The translations under genes and the position numbers were made by a program. A stretch of 64,000 nucleotides of DNA, taken from NCBI GenBank assembly GCA_024401535.1, contig JAKSKX010000004.1, positions 1-64,000 on the forward strand. Direction: 5' to 3'. This DNA is from Paludibacteraceae bacterium. Its GTDB lineage: Bacteria; Bacteroidota; Bacteroidia; Bacteroidales; Paludibacteraceae. The notes beneath the pieces are model-generated. The model saw only the letters and a list, made by a program, of their open reading frames with translations, searched no databases and was not told the DNA's origin. The first letter of the stretch is position 1, and the number at the start of each line of letters is the position of its first letter. Positions 4,062 to 34,599 of this stretch are shown in pieces.

Positions 4062-4661
4062 ATGTTTTGGGACAAGGCAGCAAGATTCTATGACTTTTTT
4101 GAAACTGTCTATAACAGAAAAGTATATAGGGAATTCCCAGCCAAAGTGGCGGAGATGACTAACGCACAAGACACCGTACTGGAATGTGCATGCGGAACAG
4201 GCATCATTACGGCTTGCGTCGCCCAACGATGCAAATCAATCATTGCCACAGACTATTCCGAGGGAATGCTTGGCCAGGCAAAGAGCAAATGCTCTGGCTT
4301 GAACAACGTGACAATCCAAAAAGCTAACATCATGCAGCTTGACTTCGCAGACAATTCCTTTGACAAGGTGATTGCCGGAAACGTCATACATCTGCTTGAC
4401 AATCCATCTGGAGCGATGAAGGAGCTTGAACGAGTATGCAAACCCGGTGGCAAGATTATTCTTCCCACATACGTCAACCATGAAAAGACCGGCAAGCCAA
4501 GCTTCATAGTGAGAATGCTAAAGAAAATCGGAGTGGATTTCAAGATGCAGTTCACAATGACCTCGTACAAGGAATTCATATCAAACATGGGCTATACAAA
4601 CGCGGAATACTATAAGGTTGACGGCAAAATGCCCAATGTAATCGCTGTCATTACCATTTGA
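4062..4661 (+). CDS. Class I SAM-dependent methyltransferase
   Basis: A 199-residue protein with a Rossmann-fold methyltransferase core of the UbiE/Methyltransf_11 type. Motif I is LECACGTGI at about residues 45-53. An acidic loop follows (ATDYSEGML), then a post-motif segment (AGNVIHLLD) and the motif III region CKPGGKIILPTY. It transfers a methyl group from S-adenosylmethionine; the acceptor cannot be predicted and no quinone-biosynthesis genes lie nearby. A TATATTTG -7 box is at 4012-4019. The gene appears to stand alone, since a second promoter precedes yidD. Confidence 0.85.
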   Translation: MFWDKAARFYDFFETVYNRKVYREFPAKVAEMTNAQDTVLECACGTGIITACVAQRCKSIIATDYSEGMLGQAKSKCSGLNNVTIQKANIMQLDFADNSFDKVIAGNVIHLLDNPSGAMKELERVCKPGGKIILPTYVNHEKTGKPSFIVRMLKKIGVDFKMQFTMTSYKEFISNMGYTNAEYYKVDGKMPNVIAVITI

Positions 4662-20789: not shown

Positions 20790-20943
20790 TCGCTACGCGA
20801 CAACATGACAGACACGTTCCACACACGTAGCCACGTAGTGGCTTGTCTCTGTCTAGACGGGGATTTTAATCCCCGGATGATTTGTCGAGTCATTTTATTC
20901 CCCAGATGATTTGTCGAGTCATTTTAACCCCCGGATGACGAGG

Positions 20944-21340: not shown

Positions 21341-21570
21341 AGGCGTGGGGAGATTTTATTAGCCGTGGGTTGAATAAAATAGCCGTGGGTTAAAACCCAC
21401 GTCTGGACAGAGAAATGTCGCTACGCGACAACGCACCACGCACGCCATTGAACACGTTTTTCACGCGTAGCCACGTAGTGGCTTGTCTCTGTCTAGACGG
21501 GGATTTTAATCCCCGGATGATTTGTCGAGTCATTTCATTCCCCGGATGATTTGTCGAGGATGGCCGTGGG
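21341..21570. repeat. Hairpin-rich intergenic repeat, copy 2
   Basis: Same order as copy 1: GCGTGGG/GCCGTGGG units, CCCACGTCTGGACAGAGA, GTCGC-TAC-GCGAC, AGCCAC-GTA-GTGGCT, TCTCTGTCTAGAC, GGGGATTTTAATCCCC and GATGATTTGTCGAG. The segment from the AGCCAC hairpin to GATGATTTGTCGAGT is essentially identical in both copies (20828-20890 and 21468-21530), while the inter-hairpin spacer differs. Confidence 0.85.
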
Positions 21571-28708: not shown

Positions 28709-29437
28709 CTATACTGCGGCGGCTGCGATGTCCCTGCTACCTGAATTGAGCGCAGATACCTTCATGCTGCGCTTCACTCTGTCGAATGAGCCTAGGAACT
28801 TTCTCACGTTGTCGGAGCGCTCGTCGTCTGAGGTTTGGAAGATTTCACTCATGTGAAGCTCGTTGTCGAGTTTGGTTATGATAAGCGAAAGTATGCGGTC
28901 CGTGTCCCATCGCTTGTCGAACTGCTTTTCGATTGTGGAGATGCGGATGTCCTGCTTGACCATGTCAGATATGATTGTGTCAGCCTGCGCCATTAGGGTG
29001 CGAAGGTTGTCCAGAAGAGACTGGGTAGAGGCAGTCGGCATGGTTTCATACTTCATGAGGAAAGAACGCACGTTCGAGAGTATGGTCGGGATAGTGTCCC
29101 CGTGGCGGATGATGGAACGCTCCTCGAAGATTTGTCTGGCAGAGGAATTGTCCGACTGAAGGATGTATGCCTCGAGAGACTTGAAGAGGGCGACTTTGAC
29201 AGCCTTGATTTCACGGACGATGTTCTTCAGGTCGGAGCGGTGATGGTTCTTGCGTACCTGCTTGACATTCTGAAGCTCGTTGTTGATGCACTCGGCGAAC
29301 TTGTCACGGAGAGTGTCGTCCAAACCGTCAACCATAGCCGCATGAATCTCCTGCATGAAAGACAAATGTGTAGTGTCATCCAACTGCGAGATGAATGACG
29401 AGCCCTTCATAGTGATATACCTCGATGTTTTTCTCAT
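28709..29437 (-). CDS. Helical protein resembling DUF6261
   Basis: A 242-residue largely alpha-helical protein without signal peptide or membrane segment. It contains THLSFMQEIHAAMVDG near the start, a central charged helix (RSDLKNIVREIKAVKVALF) and a serine/arginine-rich end. It resembles a Bacteroidales-restricted family (DUF6261) often found in variable regions; function unknown. An alternative start is the ATG nine codons in. It borders the 42-bp satellite region and has no obvious promoter. Confidence 0.7.
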   Translation of the reverse strand: MRKTSRYITMKGSSFISQLDDTTHLSFMQEIHAAMVDGLDDTLRDKFAECINNELQNVKQVRKNHHRSDLKNIVREIKAVKVALFKSLEAYILQSDNSSARQIFEERSIIRHGDTIPTILSNVRSFLMKYETMPTASTQSLLDNLRTLMAQADTIISDMVKQDIRISTIEKQFDKRWDTDRILSLIITKLDNELHMSEIFQTSDDERSDNVRKFLGSFDRVKRSMKVSALNSGSRDIAAAAV

Positions 29438-29862
29438 AAGAATAAGTTTTTAGTTGCGGGAGCGCGGCTGTGCAGTCAGTCCACCGGTACAAACAGCAGG
29501 GCGGAACAAGAAAAAGAACGGCTCCGAGGGGGTGAATAAAAGTCTAAAAATAACTCGATATTTGTTGAAAAATAAAGAAGCAAGCCCGGAGCCGTTCATG
29601 CAAACAAATCACGCAAATCCATCTTTACATCTGCAAAGATATTCATAAAAATGAAATCTGCAAAGGGGAAAGGTGAAATCTTGGGCGGAAAATGAGGATT
29701 TCCTACGGAAAAGGTGCGATTTTGTGGCTAAGGCGGTGATATTTCCGTGAAAAATGGCTGACTTGACTGTGGAATTTTGGAGCTAGTCTGGAGTAACGGC
29801 TAATTTTTGCACGGGCGAGCGAAGTGCGGAGCGGAGCGGAGTCTTTGCTGCGGTGCGAGGGT
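29438..29862. other. Gene-free spacer leading into the satellite
   Basis: No coding region is supported. It contains a 10-bp inverted repeat AACGGCTCCG/CGGAGCCGTT (29517-29526 and 29587-29596), 60 bp apart. From about 29,690 there are weak 42-bp-spaced echoes of the satellite motif (GGATTTCCTACGG at about 29696, GATATTTCCGTG at 29738). Confidence 0.5.
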
Positions 29863-30996
29863 GGATGTTTCTGCGCGGGGAGGTCTGCGGTGGAGCAATA
29901 ACTTGGAGTTTTCGTTTGGAGTGGGCTGACTTTTGGGCGTGTGGGCGGAGGTTTCTGCGAGGTTGGGGCGGATTGGTGGTGTGTGGGTGGAGGTTTCTGC
30001 GTGGTTGGGGCTAATTTTTGGCGTGTTGGTGGAGGTTTCTTTACTTCTAGAGGTGTTTTGGGGTGCGCAAATTGACCTTTCTTTGGGAAACGGCCAGAAA
30101 TTGTGGGAAGATTTTATGTTGTGCGGTGGAATTGGTGGGAATACGGGGGCGGTGGCGAGGGTGTGCAGTGGAATACACCTTAATATATATAGGGGTTGTG
30201 GGTTGTGCAGTAGAATGGGTGGGAAATCTTATATAGATTATATGTTGTGCAGTGGAATGGGTGGGAATACGGGGGCGGTGGATGGGGTGTGCAGTGGAAT
30301 ACACCTTAATATATATAGGGGTTGGGGGTTGTGCAGTGGAATGGGTGGAAATGTGGGGGCGGGTTGGGGTTTGTGCCTATGCGGAAATAGGGATGCGTGA
30401 AGGGATTTTGAGCGAAGCGGTGGAATATACCTTAATATATATATGGATTTGGGGCGGTGCGGTGGAAACGGTGGAAATGTGTGGGTGGGTTGGGGATTGC
30501 GATAGTGAAATTGTGCAAATCCGTTTTCGGATTTAGGATGTTGCAGTGGAATTTGTGGGAAGTCTTGGGCGGATTTGGGGCGGTGAATGTGATAAGATAC
30601 TCTACCCTATGCGTGTTTTGGGTTGTGCAGCGGAATATGTTGGAATGTATGCGCAGACTTTGAGCTGTGCAGACTGCAAGATGAGTTTGCGCAGGGAAAT
30701 GGAGGTCTTGACAGTGGGAAATGTGCATGATTGTGGAGAAATGGAGGTCTTGGAGGTGGGAAATGTTCACGATTGTGGAAAAATGAAGGTCTTGGGAGTA
30801 AGAAATGTTCACGATTGTGGAGAAATGGTGGTATTGGGAGTGGAAAATGTTCACGAATGTGGAGAAATGGAGGTATTGGGAGTAAGAAATGTTCATGATT
30901 GTGGAGAAATGGAGGTATTGGGAGTGGAAAATGTGCATAATTGTGGAAAAATGGAGGTCTTGAGAGTGGGAAATGTCTGCAAATCCACAAATTCGG
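29863..30996. repeat. Diverged 42-bp satellite, about 27 units
   Basis: Anchors recur every 42 bp. GGAGGTTTCTGCG-like motifs occur at 29863, 29905, 29947, 29989, 30031 and 30073. GTGCAGTGGA-like motifs occur at 30121, 30163, 30205, 30247, 30289, 30331, 30373, 30415, 30457, 30541, 30625 and 30667. GGTCTTG/GGTATTG motifs occur at 30703, 30745, 30787, 30829, 30871, 30913 and 30955. A 126-bp (three-unit) higher-order repeat containing CCTTAATATATATA occurs at 30163, 30289 and 30415. The plus strand is strikingly G-rich. Open frames appear on both strands only because 42 is a multiple of 3; none has a promoter or recognised domain. Confidence 0.85.
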
Positions 30997-31076
30997 AGAT
31001 GCTGTGCAGAATTATGTTGATATCTTTTGGGGTATATGAGGTGGAGATAAGAGGCAAACACTTATCTTTGCAGAAA

Positions 31077-31197
31077 TCATATCAATCATGCGAGAGCATG
31101 TCTTCCAAATTATAGTTATAATAATTTCCAATGTAATTTTCAAAAGATGTATTATATGGGTGCAGCCTGCGAGAGCAGTATGCATCTATTTTTTTGC
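31077..31197 (+). ncRNA. Predicted small RNA cassette 1 of 8
   Basis: A TATCTTTG box at 31063-31070 precedes it. Near the 5' end is a CATGC-GAGA-GCATG hairpin (31087-31100). The 3' hairpin has a 9-bp outer stem (31156-31164 with 31181-31189) and an inner TGC-GAGA-GCA, followed by seven T. Ends are estimates. Confidence 0.4.
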
Positions 31198-31242
31198 GTC
31201 TTTGCTGATGTATATCGGAAATTTGTATTATCTTTGCACCGA

Positions 31243-31360
31243 CAGTAGACTTAAGTATCGTAAAGACGATATGAAATTCATGGAAAAATAAAAATGTTAT
31301 ACTGTTACATAATAAGACTAGTAGTGCGCAGTGCGTGAGCATAGCGCACTTGTTTATTTA
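31243..31360 (+). ncRNA. Predicted small RNA cassette 2 of 8
   Basis: TATCTTTG box at 31229-31236. The 3' hairpin AGTGCGC/GCGCACT (31323-31350) encloses TGC-GTGA-GCA, then a T-rich tail. Confidence 0.45.
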
Positions 31361-31410
31361 TTTCGGAACAAGTCAGGCATGAAAGGAAAAAAGTTGTATC
31401 TTTGCACGCA

Positions 31411-31530
31411 AATGACAACAAAAGAAGGAATACAGAATAAAACAAATATCATAATACAAACAATTTCAAAAGTTTTTAGTTAAAGTAAGGTGTGCATTCT
31501 GCGTGAGCAGGGGGCACACTATCATTTTTA
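31411..31530 (+). ncRNA. Predicted small RNA cassette 3 of 8
   Basis: TATCTTTG box at 31397-31404. The 3' hairpin GTGTGC/GCACAC (31490-31519) encloses TGC-GTGA-GCA, then ATCATTTTT. A near-duplicate of cassette 6, 418 bp downstream. A 23-codon frame here is reduced to 5 codons in the duplicate, arguing against coding. Confidence 0.5.
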
Positions 31531-31579
31531 TATATAAATGACTAGGTATTCACGAAAATAAGTTCTAATTTTGCAATGT

Positions 31580-31655
31580 TTTAGATAAATTTTCAAATTT
31601 AAAATTGTTATATCGTGTGCGTGGTGCGTGAGCATAGCGCACTTTTTCATTTTAT
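31580..31655 (+). ncRNA. Predicted small RNA cassette 4 of 8
   Basis: TAATTTTG box at 31566-31573, preceded by TTCACGAAAATAAGTTC, which is shared with cassette 5. The 3' hairpin GTGTGC/GCGCAC (31615-31642) encloses TGC-GTGA-GCA, then TTTTTCATTTT. Confidence 0.45.
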
Positions 31656-31703
31656 CGAGAAAATGATAGGTTTTCACGAAAATAAGTTCTAATTTTGCAT
31701 TTG

Positions 31704-31780
31704 AAATTAAGCATAGAAATATTTATTATTAGATCACGAGTGTGCGGTGTGCGTGAGCATGGCGCACATTCCTATTTATT
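31704..31780 (+). ncRNA. Predicted small RNA cassette 5 of 8
   Basis: TAATTTTG box at 31690-31697, with the same upstream block as cassette 4. The 3' hairpin GTGTGC/GCGCAC (31740-31767) encloses TGC-GTGA-GCA. The T-tract is weaker (TTCCTATTTATT). Confidence 0.45.
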
Positions 31781-31828
31781 GAAGAACAAGTGAGGCATGA
31801 AAGGAAAAAAGTTGTATCTTTGCACGCA

Positions 31829-31948
31829 AATGACAACAAAAGAATAAGGACATAGTAATACAAATGTCATAATACAAACAATTTAAAATTATAGCTAGAA
31901 TTAAGGTGTGCATTCTGCGTGAGCAGGGGGCACACTATCATTTTTTTG
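31829..31948 (+). ncRNA. Predicted small RNA cassette 6 of 8
   Basis: TATCTTTG box at 31815-31822. The 3' hairpin GTGTGC/GCACAC (31906-31935) encloses TGC-GTGA-GCA, then seven T. Near-duplicate of cassette 3 from promoter to terminator. Confidence 0.5.
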
Positions 31949-31994
31949 CGAAAATTCTTGCATCGGTATGGAAAAACATATATATCTGCAGAGC

Positions 31995-32115
31995 AGAGCA
32001 GAACTGGAGAGGCGTCTGCACTCTTTTATTGAACTGAGAAACAAATAAATTTAACTAATAAATTATATCCTGGAGAGCGGTATGCGTGAGCACACTTCCC
32101 TCCTCCCTTTTTTTA
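31995..32115 (+). ncRNA. Predicted small RNA cassette 7 of 8 (degenerate)
   Basis: The box is imperfect (TATATCTG at 31981-31988). The hairpin at 32072-32103 keeps TGC-GTGA-GCA, but the outer stem is only GGAG/CTCC with mismatches; seven T follow. Confidence 0.35.
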
Positions 32116-32203
32116 TAGGGGCTAAAGTCGGGAAAACAAAAAAGATGAAAAAAAAGATGCCCGGACGCTTGCAGAACGAAAAAAAGATATATCTTTGCAA
32201 CAC

Positions 32204-32320
32204 ATATAAGAGCAAAAGTTAAGACTTTTTATAAATAGGTGGAAAAAACAAAAGCAAAACTATTTTAATGCTAGGAGTGGGTGCTGCGCGAGCAGCGTTC
32301 ACTCCGTCCTTATTTTAATA
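32204..32320 (+). ncRNA. Predicted small RNA cassette 8 of 8
   Basis: TTG (32169-32171) and TATCTTTG (32190-32197) form a promoter with 18-bp spacing. The hairpin GGAGTG/CACTCC (32274-32305) encloses a 5-bp GCTGC-GCGA-GCAGC. An AAGTCGGGAAA segment after the hairpin is shared with cassette 7. Confidence 0.45.
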
Positions 32321-32375
32321 GGGGGGACACAAGTCGGGAAAGAGAAATCCCAAAGAGAAGAAAATCAGAAGCATA

Positions 32376-32407
32376 TTGGTCTATATCAGGAAAATGAAGT
32401 ATCTTTG
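32376..32407 (+). promoter_or_regulatory. Promoter of the 32453 gene
   Basis: TTG (32376-32378) and TATCTTTG (32400-32407), 21 bp apart, 45 bp upstream of the start codon. Confidence 0.6.
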
Positions 32408-32452
32408 CAAGTGAAAATAAAAGTGAAAGTGAAAACAAACCAATAGAGACAT

Positions 32453-33034
32453 ATGAGAAACGGATTCGGCATAATCATAGGGCTGTGGGTGCTTGCCCTT
32501 GGCGGATACATATACTGGCAGAACAGCACAAACGCAACAGAGAGCTATGTGGGCGAGGACGCGGAGGACAAAAGGTTCGCGGAGAAAATCGCAGCCAAGA
32601 AAGTGCAGGACAAGTACATCCCAGACGAGGACAAGTACAAGATAAGGGACATAGGAGCTCCGGACACGGAAATTCTGGAAATAGCACAGAACAGGGAGTG
32701 GACGGCAGTGCAGATTGTCTATGACGGGGGCGCATACGTGTACGGCAAGGCGAGGTACCTGGGCCAAGGAAACTACGAGATAATGAGGAACGATGTGGAT
32801 TCGGTGCCTGTAAACGTCAAGAGGGGCATGATGAAAGCTGAGTTCGGCAACCTTGAGGGGCCAATTATTGTGAGCAGGGTGCTTATAGCGTACTGCTATC
32901 CTGACCACTACATAAAAGTGGAGATTCAAAAAGGGATGACAACCTGGGAAGAAGACAAGTTCGGAAACATAGACAAAAGAACGATAACTATAGGCATCAC
33001 GAGAGAGGTGACGAAGGAAACATATTGTAAATAA
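32453..33034 (+). CDS. Membrane-anchored protein of unknown function
   Basis: A 193-residue protein with one N-terminal transmembrane helix (residues 4-22, GFGIIIGLWVLALGGYIYW), then a charged helix (GEDAEDKRFAEKIAAKKVQDKY). The rest is a beta-rich domain (WTAVQIVYDGGAYVYGKARYL), probably periplasmic. No family is recognised. It has its own promoter just after the small RNA cassettes, and a separate -7 box precedes the next gene. Confidence 0.75.
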   Translation: MRNGFGIIIGLWVLALGGYIYWQNSTNATESYVGEDAEDKRFAEKIAAKKVQDKYIPDEDKYKIRDIGAPDTEILEIAQNREWTAVQIVYDGGAYVYGKARYLGQGNYEIMRNDVDSVPVNVKRGMMKAEFGNLEGPIIVSRVLIAYCYPDHYIKVEIQKGMTTWEEDKFGNIDKRTITIGITREVTKETYCK

Positions 33035-33102
33035 AGCAGCCAAAAGGCACTCTGAAAGAAAAATAAAGCCTATATTTGCAGACAGGAAAAACTCTAAGGA
33101 AG

Positions 33103-33774
33103 ATGAAAGGAATGAAAAGATATATCGCGGCGGCTGTGATGTGCGTATGCGCCCTTCTATGCCATGCACAGGACACCATAAGCCTGATGAACGGGCAGAA
33201 GATAGCCGCCAAGGTGATGCTGATAAGCGGCGGCGAGGTGCAGTACAAGAAATACTCAAACCCCGACGGACCGACATACGTGGAAAAGGGAACAAACATC
33301 GGATACATAAGGTATCAGAACGGCGAAGTGGAGAACTGGTCGGCTGTAGTGCCTGAACCGGTGGAGGCTGCGACTGCGGTTGTTGAGCCGGAGCCGGTGG
33401 AGGACCTGTACGTGGTGCCTACGAAAGTCGGAATACTGAGATACGAGAAGCACTCGCCTTCGTACGTTAGCCTTGACAGGAACCATCTGTCGGTCGAAAG
33501 GGCCTACGAGGTGATGGGGGACAGATACGACGACTTCAACAAGCACAGAAAGAAGTGGAAGAACTGGAAGAAGTGCTGGCTGATAGGCGTGGGAGTGACT
33601 GCGGTTGTAACGCCCATGATAGCTGTGGGGGCAAGAAAGACAAACAGCAACGGACTCGACATGGCCACGATATTCGTGCCTGTGGGAGGAATGACGGCCA
33701 TAGGACTCGGCGCAGGCAAGAGCTCGAAGCACAAGAGGAGGATGATGTGGAGACTCGGCGCGATAGAATACTAG
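33103..33774 (+). CDS. Exported protein of unknown function with C-terminal glycine-zipper-like helices
   Basis: About 223 residues. A TATATTTG -7 box at 33071-33078 rules out the longer frame beginning there, so the ATG at 33103 (or the one at 33112) is the start. It has a signal peptide (MKRYIAAAVMCVCALLCHAQ). The mature start DTISLMNGQKIAAKVMLISGGEVQYKKYS is a short beta motif common in Bacteroidales envelope proteins. A Glu/Val/Pro-rich linker follows, then a basic KHRKKWKNWKK segment and two Gly/Ala-rich hydrophobic helices. Function unknown. Confidence 0.78.
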   Translation: MKGMKRYIAAAVMCVCALLCHAQDTISLMNGQKIAAKVMLISGGEVQYKKYSNPDGPTYVEKGTNIGYIRYQNGEVENWSAVVPEPVEAATAVVEPEPVEDLYVVPTKVGILRYEKHSPSYVSLDRNHLSVERAYEVMGDRYDDFNKHRKKWKNWKKCWLIGVGVTAVVTPMIAVGARKTNSNGLDMATIFVPVGGMTAIGLGAGKSSKHKRRMMWRLGAIEY

Positions 33775-33825: not shown

Positions 33826-34599
33826 ATGACATTCTTGCAGATGGGAATGATGGATGTAATAGACATCCTGCTAGGTGCGACACTGCTGTACCAGACATAC
33901 AAGCTGATGCGAAAGACTCAGGCATACAAGCTGTTCATCGGCGTCATAATCTTCATACTGATGTGGGTTGTGGTGTCGATAGTGTTCAGAATGCGACTGC
34001 TCGGCGAGGTAATGAACCAGGTGATGAACTTCGGCGTGATAGCGCTGATAATACTGTTCCAGGAGGAAATCAGAAGCTTCATCGGGAGAATCGGCGAGGG
34101 CAGGGACTCGTTCCTGAGGATATTCAGGAAGAATGACGATAACAACATAGAGGACTCTGACATCATGCAGATAGTCGTTGCGTGCAAGAACATGAGCAGG
34201 GAGAAGTGCGGCGCGCTGATAGTGATAGAGCAGGGAATGGGACTGCAGAGCATCACAGTGACGGGAGACGAAGTTGACGCCAAGATAAACGCCCGCCTGA
34301 TAGAGAACATATTCTTCAAGAACTCGCCGCTACATGACGGAGCGATGGTAATCAGCAAGCGAAGAATAAAGTCTGCGGGCTGCATCCTTCCGGTCAGCCA
34401 CAGCATGGAGCTACCCAAACACATGGGACTAAGGCACAGAGCGGCACTCGGAGTCAGCGAGAAGCTTGACGTGAAGACCATAATAGTCAGCGAGGAGACA
34501 GGAAACATATCCTACGCACACAACGGCGAGATAAAGAGCGTGTCGGTCAAGGAACTAGAGCTGCTGCTGAGCGACAAACAGGATTCAGTGGAAAATTAG
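33826..34599 (+). CDS. cdaA: Diadenylate cyclase CdaA
   Basis: A 257-residue protein with two or three N-terminal transmembrane helices (residues 8-80) and a DisA_N diadenylate cyclase domain. The catalytic motifs are DGA at 171-173 (NSPLHDGAMVI) and RHR at 203-205 (LRHRAALG). It makes cyclic di-AMP from two ATP, a messenger controlling osmolyte and potassium uptake and cell-wall balance. In many Bacteroidales it follows folP; here it follows a hypothetical exported protein by 51 bp. The regulator CdaR is not present. Confidence 0.93.
   Translation: MTFLQMGMMDVIDILLGATLLYQTYKLMRKTQAYKLFIGVIIFILMWVVVSIVFRMRLLGEVMNQVMNFGVIALIILFQEEIRSFIGRIGEGRDSFLRIFRKNDDNNIEDSDIMQIVVACKNMSREKCGALIVIEQGMGLQSITVTGDEVDAKINARLIENIFFKNSPLHDGAMVISKRRIKSAGCILPVSHSMELPKHMGLRHRAALGVSEKLDVKTIIVSEETGNISYAHNGEIKSVSVKELELLLSDKQDSVEN

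Follow-up and report, generated by a model that had tools for sequence, protein, structure and literature searches.

Within the window, the whole stretch of 64,000 nucleotides analysed here, the + strand carries eight consecutive cassettes in one orientation within 1.27 kb, between a minisatellite (29900–31031; several sequence families, every one with a period of 42 nt) and an orphan gene encoding a 193-aa protein. In each cassette, a box of the -7 type is followed by 38–84 nt of non-coding body, a hairpin with the apex TGC-GNGA-GCA and a T-rich tail. The apex motif TGCGNGAGCA, located by script, starts at 31168, 31332, 31500, 31625, 31750, 31916, 32083 and 32285, with a GTGA loop in six cassettes and GAGA and GCGA in one each, and is absent from the - strand of the whole window. 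Direct reading and scripts thus bear out the array of eight cassettes described in the earlier note and add a ninth motif copy, CATGCGAGAGCATG, at 31089 near the 5' end of cassette 1, where it forms an extra short motif hairpin. Two motif-box-motif patterns gave 3 and 2 matches in the window and 0 in 100 shuffles.

Cassette 1 (31063–31200) opens with the box TATCTTTGCA at 31063–31072 and ends in a hairpin at 31156–31189 with a GAGA loop and a T run, so that its estimated RNA covers about 31075–31198. The hairpin of cassette 2 (31229–31364; estimated RNA about 31241–31362) lies at 31323–31350 and pairs AGTGCGC with GCGCACT and has an A.A mismatch and a GTGA loop. Cassettes 3 (31397–31532) and 6 (31815–31948) are near-duplicates that share the same GTGA hairpin, at 31489–31520 and 31905–31936, respectively, with estimated RNAs of about 31409–31530 and 31827–31946. 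Cassettes 4 (31566–31657) and 5 (31690–31782) have short bodies, the box TAATTTTGCA and GTGA hairpins at 31617–31642 and 31738–31771, and their RNAs are estimated at about 31578–31655 and 31702–31780. Cassette 7 (31981–32115) is degenerate, with the box TATATCTG at 31981 and a weak GTGA hairpin at 32072–32103, and cassette 8 (32190–32317; estimated RNA about 32202–32315) has the strongest hairpin of the array, at 32274–32305 with a GCGA loop.

The box TANNTTTGCA, which we take to be the Bacteroidales -7 element, precedes seven of the eight cassettes (at 31063, 31229, 31397, 31566, 31690, 31815 and 32190). It is a real signal in the window, with 30 matches against 3.8 expected. A TTG 21–28 nt 5' of the box, presumably where the -33 element might lie, is found at four of nine boxes, and no TTG stands at that distance from the other five. 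The next box downstream, at 32400, is outside the RNA set; it lies 53 nt before the start codon of the 193-aa gene (32453–33034, + strand) and probably serves that gene. Neither this protein nor that of the following gene (33106–33774) has a Pfam match, and the 193-aa protein had no match in 60 other genomes of the family, two of them from the same genus. The gene cdaA starts at 33826, after the gene at 33106–33774; with two genes in between, a role of the array as cdaA leader was rejected. None of 13 other window ORFs queried was found adjoining cdaA in three relatives.

The spacing of the array points to how it may be built. From motif to next box the distances are 61, 65, 66, 65, 65, 65, 107 and 115 (61–66 in cassettes 1–6), and from box to motif they are 105, 103, 103, 59, 60, 101, 102 and 95; the steadier module is therefore terminator, spacer and next promoter, and the body is the variable part. 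Duplication is also visible in longer blocks, as 31324–31470 and 31742–31888 (hairpin 2 to cassette 3 and hairpin 5 to cassette 6) are 86% alike, and the promoters of cassettes 4 and 5 and of cassettes 3 and 6 are 86% and 94% identical, respectively. Box-to-box lengths of 166, 168, 169, 124, 125, 166, 209 and 210 differ from multiples of 42 by no more than 2 nt, which makes the units 3, 4 or 5 times about 42 nt long with a best common period of 41.8. The chance of such a fit is about 0.0004 if the three length classes are independent and uniform, in a test conceived after the numbers had been seen. The fit may reflect gain and loss by 42 nt at a time or phasing on the same face of the helix at four helical turns. 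Tandem repeats of period 42 occur at three places of the sampled genome, namely 29900–31031 and 1–515 of the window and 4080–4398 of another locus (L130), with sequences that differ by eye among the three. In the part of the minisatellite at 30654–31063, one + frame is open with 14-aa repeats and no clear codon-position bias (58/45/70 differences).

Compared with 300 single-base shuffles, the hairpins reach z values of -3.6 to -5.4 in seven of the eight cassettes and -1.7 in cassette 7, of which the other strand folds better (-18.1 vs -12.1 kcal/mol). Since the box of cassette 7 is degenerate as well as its hairpin weak, this cassette may be a decayed copy. All eight stems are followed by 6–9 T within 12 bases, in runs that are often interrupted, and all eight have the form of a Rho-independent terminator, a G+C-rich hairpin and then a T run, weakly so in cassette 7; a consensus terminator scan picked the hairpins of cassettes 2, 4, 5 and 8 only. 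In an eight-row alignment, standard pairs fill 87.5% of 112 pair cells, with a covariation score of 0.367, and none of 500 shuffles reached either value. Both figures lean in favour of the structure, as it was drawn from the tested sequences themselves and the alignment includes two almost identical rows, 3 and 6. Six versions with slid alignments were all below the real one in paired cells and covariation score. Seven of 14 pairs are changed on both sides, as in 17 of 500 shuffles, and the 15 further pair types are unexceptional (70 of 500 shuffles). A model built on the array hairpins (R1) scores them at 50–63 bits on the + strand and nothing above 18.9 bits on the - strand. Compensatory change in the outer stems, as claimed earlier, is thus real and passed the shuffle and slide controls. 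The further claim that it indicates more than a terminator is not supported as stated, because Rho-independent terminators also show compensating outer stems and a T tail, and the array hairpins are best read as such terminators. The feature that goes beyond terminator form is the fixed apex, which descent together with a stable tetraloop could explain.

The apex is invariant at nine of its ten positions and is confined to the array in the part of the genome sampled. When one detector was applied inside and outside the array, all seven array hairpins that it found carried the apex (cassette 7 was missed), compared with none of 74 hairpins elsewhere in 464 kb of genome, among which two had GNGA loops. 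A stricter scan found no apex in 64 outside hairpins and detected only four of the eight array hairpins, so that the single-detector figure is the fair comparison. Identity exceeds the shuffled level by more than 0.1 in 18 of 28 pairs for whole hairpins and in 10 of 28 once the apex is removed. Body identity lies within 0.05 of the shuffled level in 27 of 28 pairs, the exception being bodies 3 and 6 (0.83 vs 0.64). Common descent by itself might produce the confinement of the apex to the array, but with nearly all body pairs at the shuffled level and only 10 of 28 apex-less hairpin pairs well over it, the apex has outlasted most of its surroundings.

A scan of 358 family genomes for a pattern of box, body, apex and T tail found 22 sites, spread over 19 of the genomes. 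Upon folding of all 22, clean TGC-GTGA-GCA hairpins at -14.8 kcal/mol or better, a line drawn after the folds were seen, appeared at six: cassette 4 of the array, two sites in G007 and one each in G072, G093 and G183, the last four genomes thus holding single look-alikes. One further GNGA site (L065) folds at -14.1 kcal/mol. With a GAAA apex instead, the pattern matched 10 sites, each in a different one of the 358 genomes, and the most stable of them folds at -14.2 kcal/mol; the comparison is uneven, setting four test sequences against one, and its numbers are small throughout. Reversed patterns, run as controls for both searches (GNGA and GAAA), matched 4 of the 358 genomes each time. The site in G072 follows a stop codon on the same strand and may be a gene terminator. 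The comparison speaks for a preference of short RNAs for the apex but is no proof of one.

No shared constraint is seen in the bodies. As the earlier note had stated in calling coding unlikely, the open frame is 23 codons long in cassette 3 and 5 in its near-duplicate cassette 6; small-protein genes were rejected since no frame is kept between these two and the other bodies are unrelated. A CRISPR-like array was likewise rejected, as the linkers are not near-identical in the manner of repeats and the bodies match no phage or plasmid (best E 0.1, short pieces). Searched against the rest of the genome, the bodies gave no match (best E 0.02), several of the best hits being promoter words. Bodies 1, 2 and 7, which by themselves have folding energies of -8.9 to -11.8 kcal/mol, are not wholly single-stranded. 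When duplexes were predicted between the bodies and 295 start regions, from 464 kb or about one-sixth of the genome, nothing stood out clearly from shuffled bodies, and the best predicted target of body 1, the start of cdaA, had an energy at shuffled level.

In nine genomes of the genus, model R1 gave no match above 32.0 bits outside the eight cassettes. It matched 40 of 358 family genomes, the own genome included, at E 0.001 and 17 of 393 order genomes at E 0.0001, and clustered matches were seen in the own genome alone among these sets, searched with strict filters under which only 15–16 candidates were scored per genome, so that weak copies are missed. The matches in G181 (ten) and G253 (twelve) are scattered over different contigs. 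No array of this make-up was found when GTDB and viral contigs, possibly without the records of the window itself, were scanned for patterns, and the specific patterns had 0, 0 and 0 matches in viral contigs. None of the 19 tandem motif stretches in GTDB contigs (17) and viral contigs (2) has a TANNTTTG box between its motifs, and they were rejected as counterparts; they comprise CRISPR-like repeats (L102), repeated terminators (L095, L098), a repeat of about 111 nt (L099) and, for the remainder, stretches that lack a hairpin at both motifs. Tandem promoters occur in 42 of 358 family genomes, and the 11 loci read in detail are rRNA promoters, FopS or unrelated sequence. Absence of the structure from every related genome, which the earlier note named as a refutation, holds by half: the array was not found elsewhere, but single look-alikes were. 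The weak R1 matches that were read mostly look like gene terminators.

None of the 4227 models of Rfam 15 matches the window at gathering score, and none matches 29400–33200 up to E 5, in agreement with the earlier view that no described family has this arrangement; nor was a description of the array or its apex found in open-licence literature at the level of titles and abstract openings. The closest known systems are FopS (RF04319) and GibS (RF04182) of Bacteroidaceae, which, like the array, are multicopy short RNAs with a promoter, a single-stranded 5' part and a terminator hairpin; the array has this order of single-stranded part and hairpin by its folds. Loops of the type GNGA were read by eye in two of three FopS copies (GTC-GTGA-GAC in L151 and GAGA in L178 of the own genome), and the third copy (L153) has a five-base loop. 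According to PMC11697453, FopS members share a 5' seed that is called R1, and B. thetaiotaomicron has 14 of them. The array differs in being in tandem, in keeping its hairpin rather than a seed and in matching no FopS model. The own genome has one FopS over cut-off (68.8 bits), on another contig. Further marks of FopS are its association with RbpB and its repression of susC-like mRNAs. The LhrC1-5 sRNAs of Listeria monocytogenes are, according to PMC12101431 and PMC13350326, a homologous cluster of 111–114 nt with LhrC1-4 in one intergenic region; as described there, the copies closely resemble one another both in sequence and in structure and have CU-rich target sites, whereas the bodies of the array are mostly unrelated. 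PMC2864571 is a further paper on related known sRNAs. Ordinary Bacteroidales terminators with GTGCG-type stems also resemble the array hairpins, as outer stems such as GAGTGCG/CGCACTC recur in relatives (L002–L006, L035; repeated in G181). They differ in that the apex is absent from 74 such hairpins of the sampled genome, and in the array a box stands 59–105 nt before each motif. By its sequence, the array is a candidate set of sibling multicopy sRNAs, a class of related stand-alone genes each with its own promoter and terminator.

The tandem short non-coding transcription units with a covarying stem proposed earlier are supported by the sequence. From this anatomy, the covariation, the duplications and the unkept reading frame, we infer that the array probably encodes a family of regulatory RNAs peculiar to the species, and with about even confidence that it is a species-specific cluster of paralogous sRNA genes grown by tandem duplication. 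Each cassette would be read from its own -7 box and end at its own Rho-independent terminator, yielding an RNA of 75–125 nt with a mostly unstructured A/U-rich 5' body followed by the GNGA-capped terminator hairpin. After tandem duplication, most bodies would have diverged with box and terminator kept, and the diversified bodies would most likely regulate in trans by base pairing. The common hairpin would provide termination, 3'-end stability and perhaps a handle for a protein, the last being a putative role of the apex. In Bacteroidales, post-transcriptional control has few worked examples, and to our knowledge no Hfq-like matchmaker. An array with kept promoter and terminator and bodies turning over would let sRNA specificities be watched in the making, and a possible sRNA-binding protein could be sought with the common apex as bait.

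Against regulation by base pairing stand the duplex predictions, with no clear target in about one-sixth of the genome, and the freedom of the bodies from visible constraint, for which an RNA sponge or inert duplication would account equally. The missing TTG at five of nine boxes and the failure to find a second array also weigh against the proposed sRNA cluster. A terminator-promoter segment may simply have been copied repeatedly in a repeat-prone intergenic region, with transcripts that may arise and do nothing, which we hold to be possible rather than likely. The adjoining 42-nt minisatellite and unit lengths in 42-nt steps fit such copying, as do the chance identity of the bodies, the restriction of the array to one of the genomes searched and the lack of a clear target signal in about one-sixth of the genome. 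Yet seven of eight boxes and hairpins are intact and the stems carry compensatory changes in an array with saturated bodies, and this argues against inert copying because drift alone should have broken boxes and hairpins too. Even if inert, the array would be a clear case of tandem duplication making sRNA-like transcription units.

The roles suggested in the earlier note, namely sponge RNAs, a phase-variable set and leader-type elements, are none of them directly supported. As a sponge, the hairpin would be the functional element, titrating an RNA-binding protein by way of its UGC-GNGA-GCA apex, and the bodies would be spacers free to drift; copy number fits titration, and the apex is nearly invariant with the rest of the hairpin kept modestly and the bodies not at all. 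However, a loop of the GNRA type also makes a stable cap for a terminator in its own right, and we know of no protein in Bacteroidales that reads UGC-GNGA-GCA, which leaves the sponge unlikely. A leader relay, in which successive promoter-terminator steps adjust how much transcription runs on into the 193-aa gene, would suit the position of the array, directly upstream on the same strand, and its several terminators with interrupted T tails, but this gene is preceded by a box of its own (32400) and eight serial terminators would presumably nearly silence read-through, making such a relay highly improbable.

Beyond the sRNA cluster preferred here, it could be speculated that a class of Bacteroidales sRNAs carries UGC-GNGA-GCA as a 3' address label, which a putative protein would recognize, and that the array takes this use to an extreme, with constant terminator-promoter linkers between which new bodies are placed and with growth and shrinkage in steps of 42 nt (four helical turns). 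We regard this as decidedly unlikely. Compatible with it, the apex ends both a FopS-like 3'-UTR sequence and a conserved RNA-like element at other loci, matches that were selected for the apex because model R1 favours it. In L228 and L234 (family f22), the FopS-like sequence TTTTTCATGGAGTAAAGTTTAAGGGTA lies close after a stop codon and ends in a TGC-GTGA-GCA terminator; Rfam does not call it at E 0.1. In L231, L236, L237, L238, L239 and L243 (families f68, f109 and f22), the element TAGCACTT..ATAAGCATAATGTGATGAATT precedes a TGC-GNGA-GCA hairpin. Scanning of L231, L236, L239 and L243 against Rfam gave no match up to E 0.1, and the element is possibly an undescribed sRNA or 3'-UTR RNA.

Hairpins of other kinds were seen among the matches as well. 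The 11 matches read from G181 (ten) and G253 (one) (L196–L206) are copies of a hairpin that closely resembles the one in cassette 2 and has the apex TCC-GTGA-GGA; a number of these copies follow a shared gene end, and they probably lie in a repeated element. The repeated terminators of L098, from a Clostridia MAG, are three tandem near-perfect hairpins followed by T on the - strand (2290–2464), with the apex TGCGTGAGCA or TGCGCGAGCA. Among the tandem-promoter matches listed, CRISPR-like repeats of about 45–47 nt, each with one TANNTTTGC box near its 3' end, occur in L149, L158, G063, G350, G016 and G370. Finally, the window itself holds two short clusters of 29-nt repeats with the consensus ATTTYAATCCCCGGATGATTTGTCGAGTC, at 20863–20938 and 21503–21558, which are CRISPR-like or remnants.
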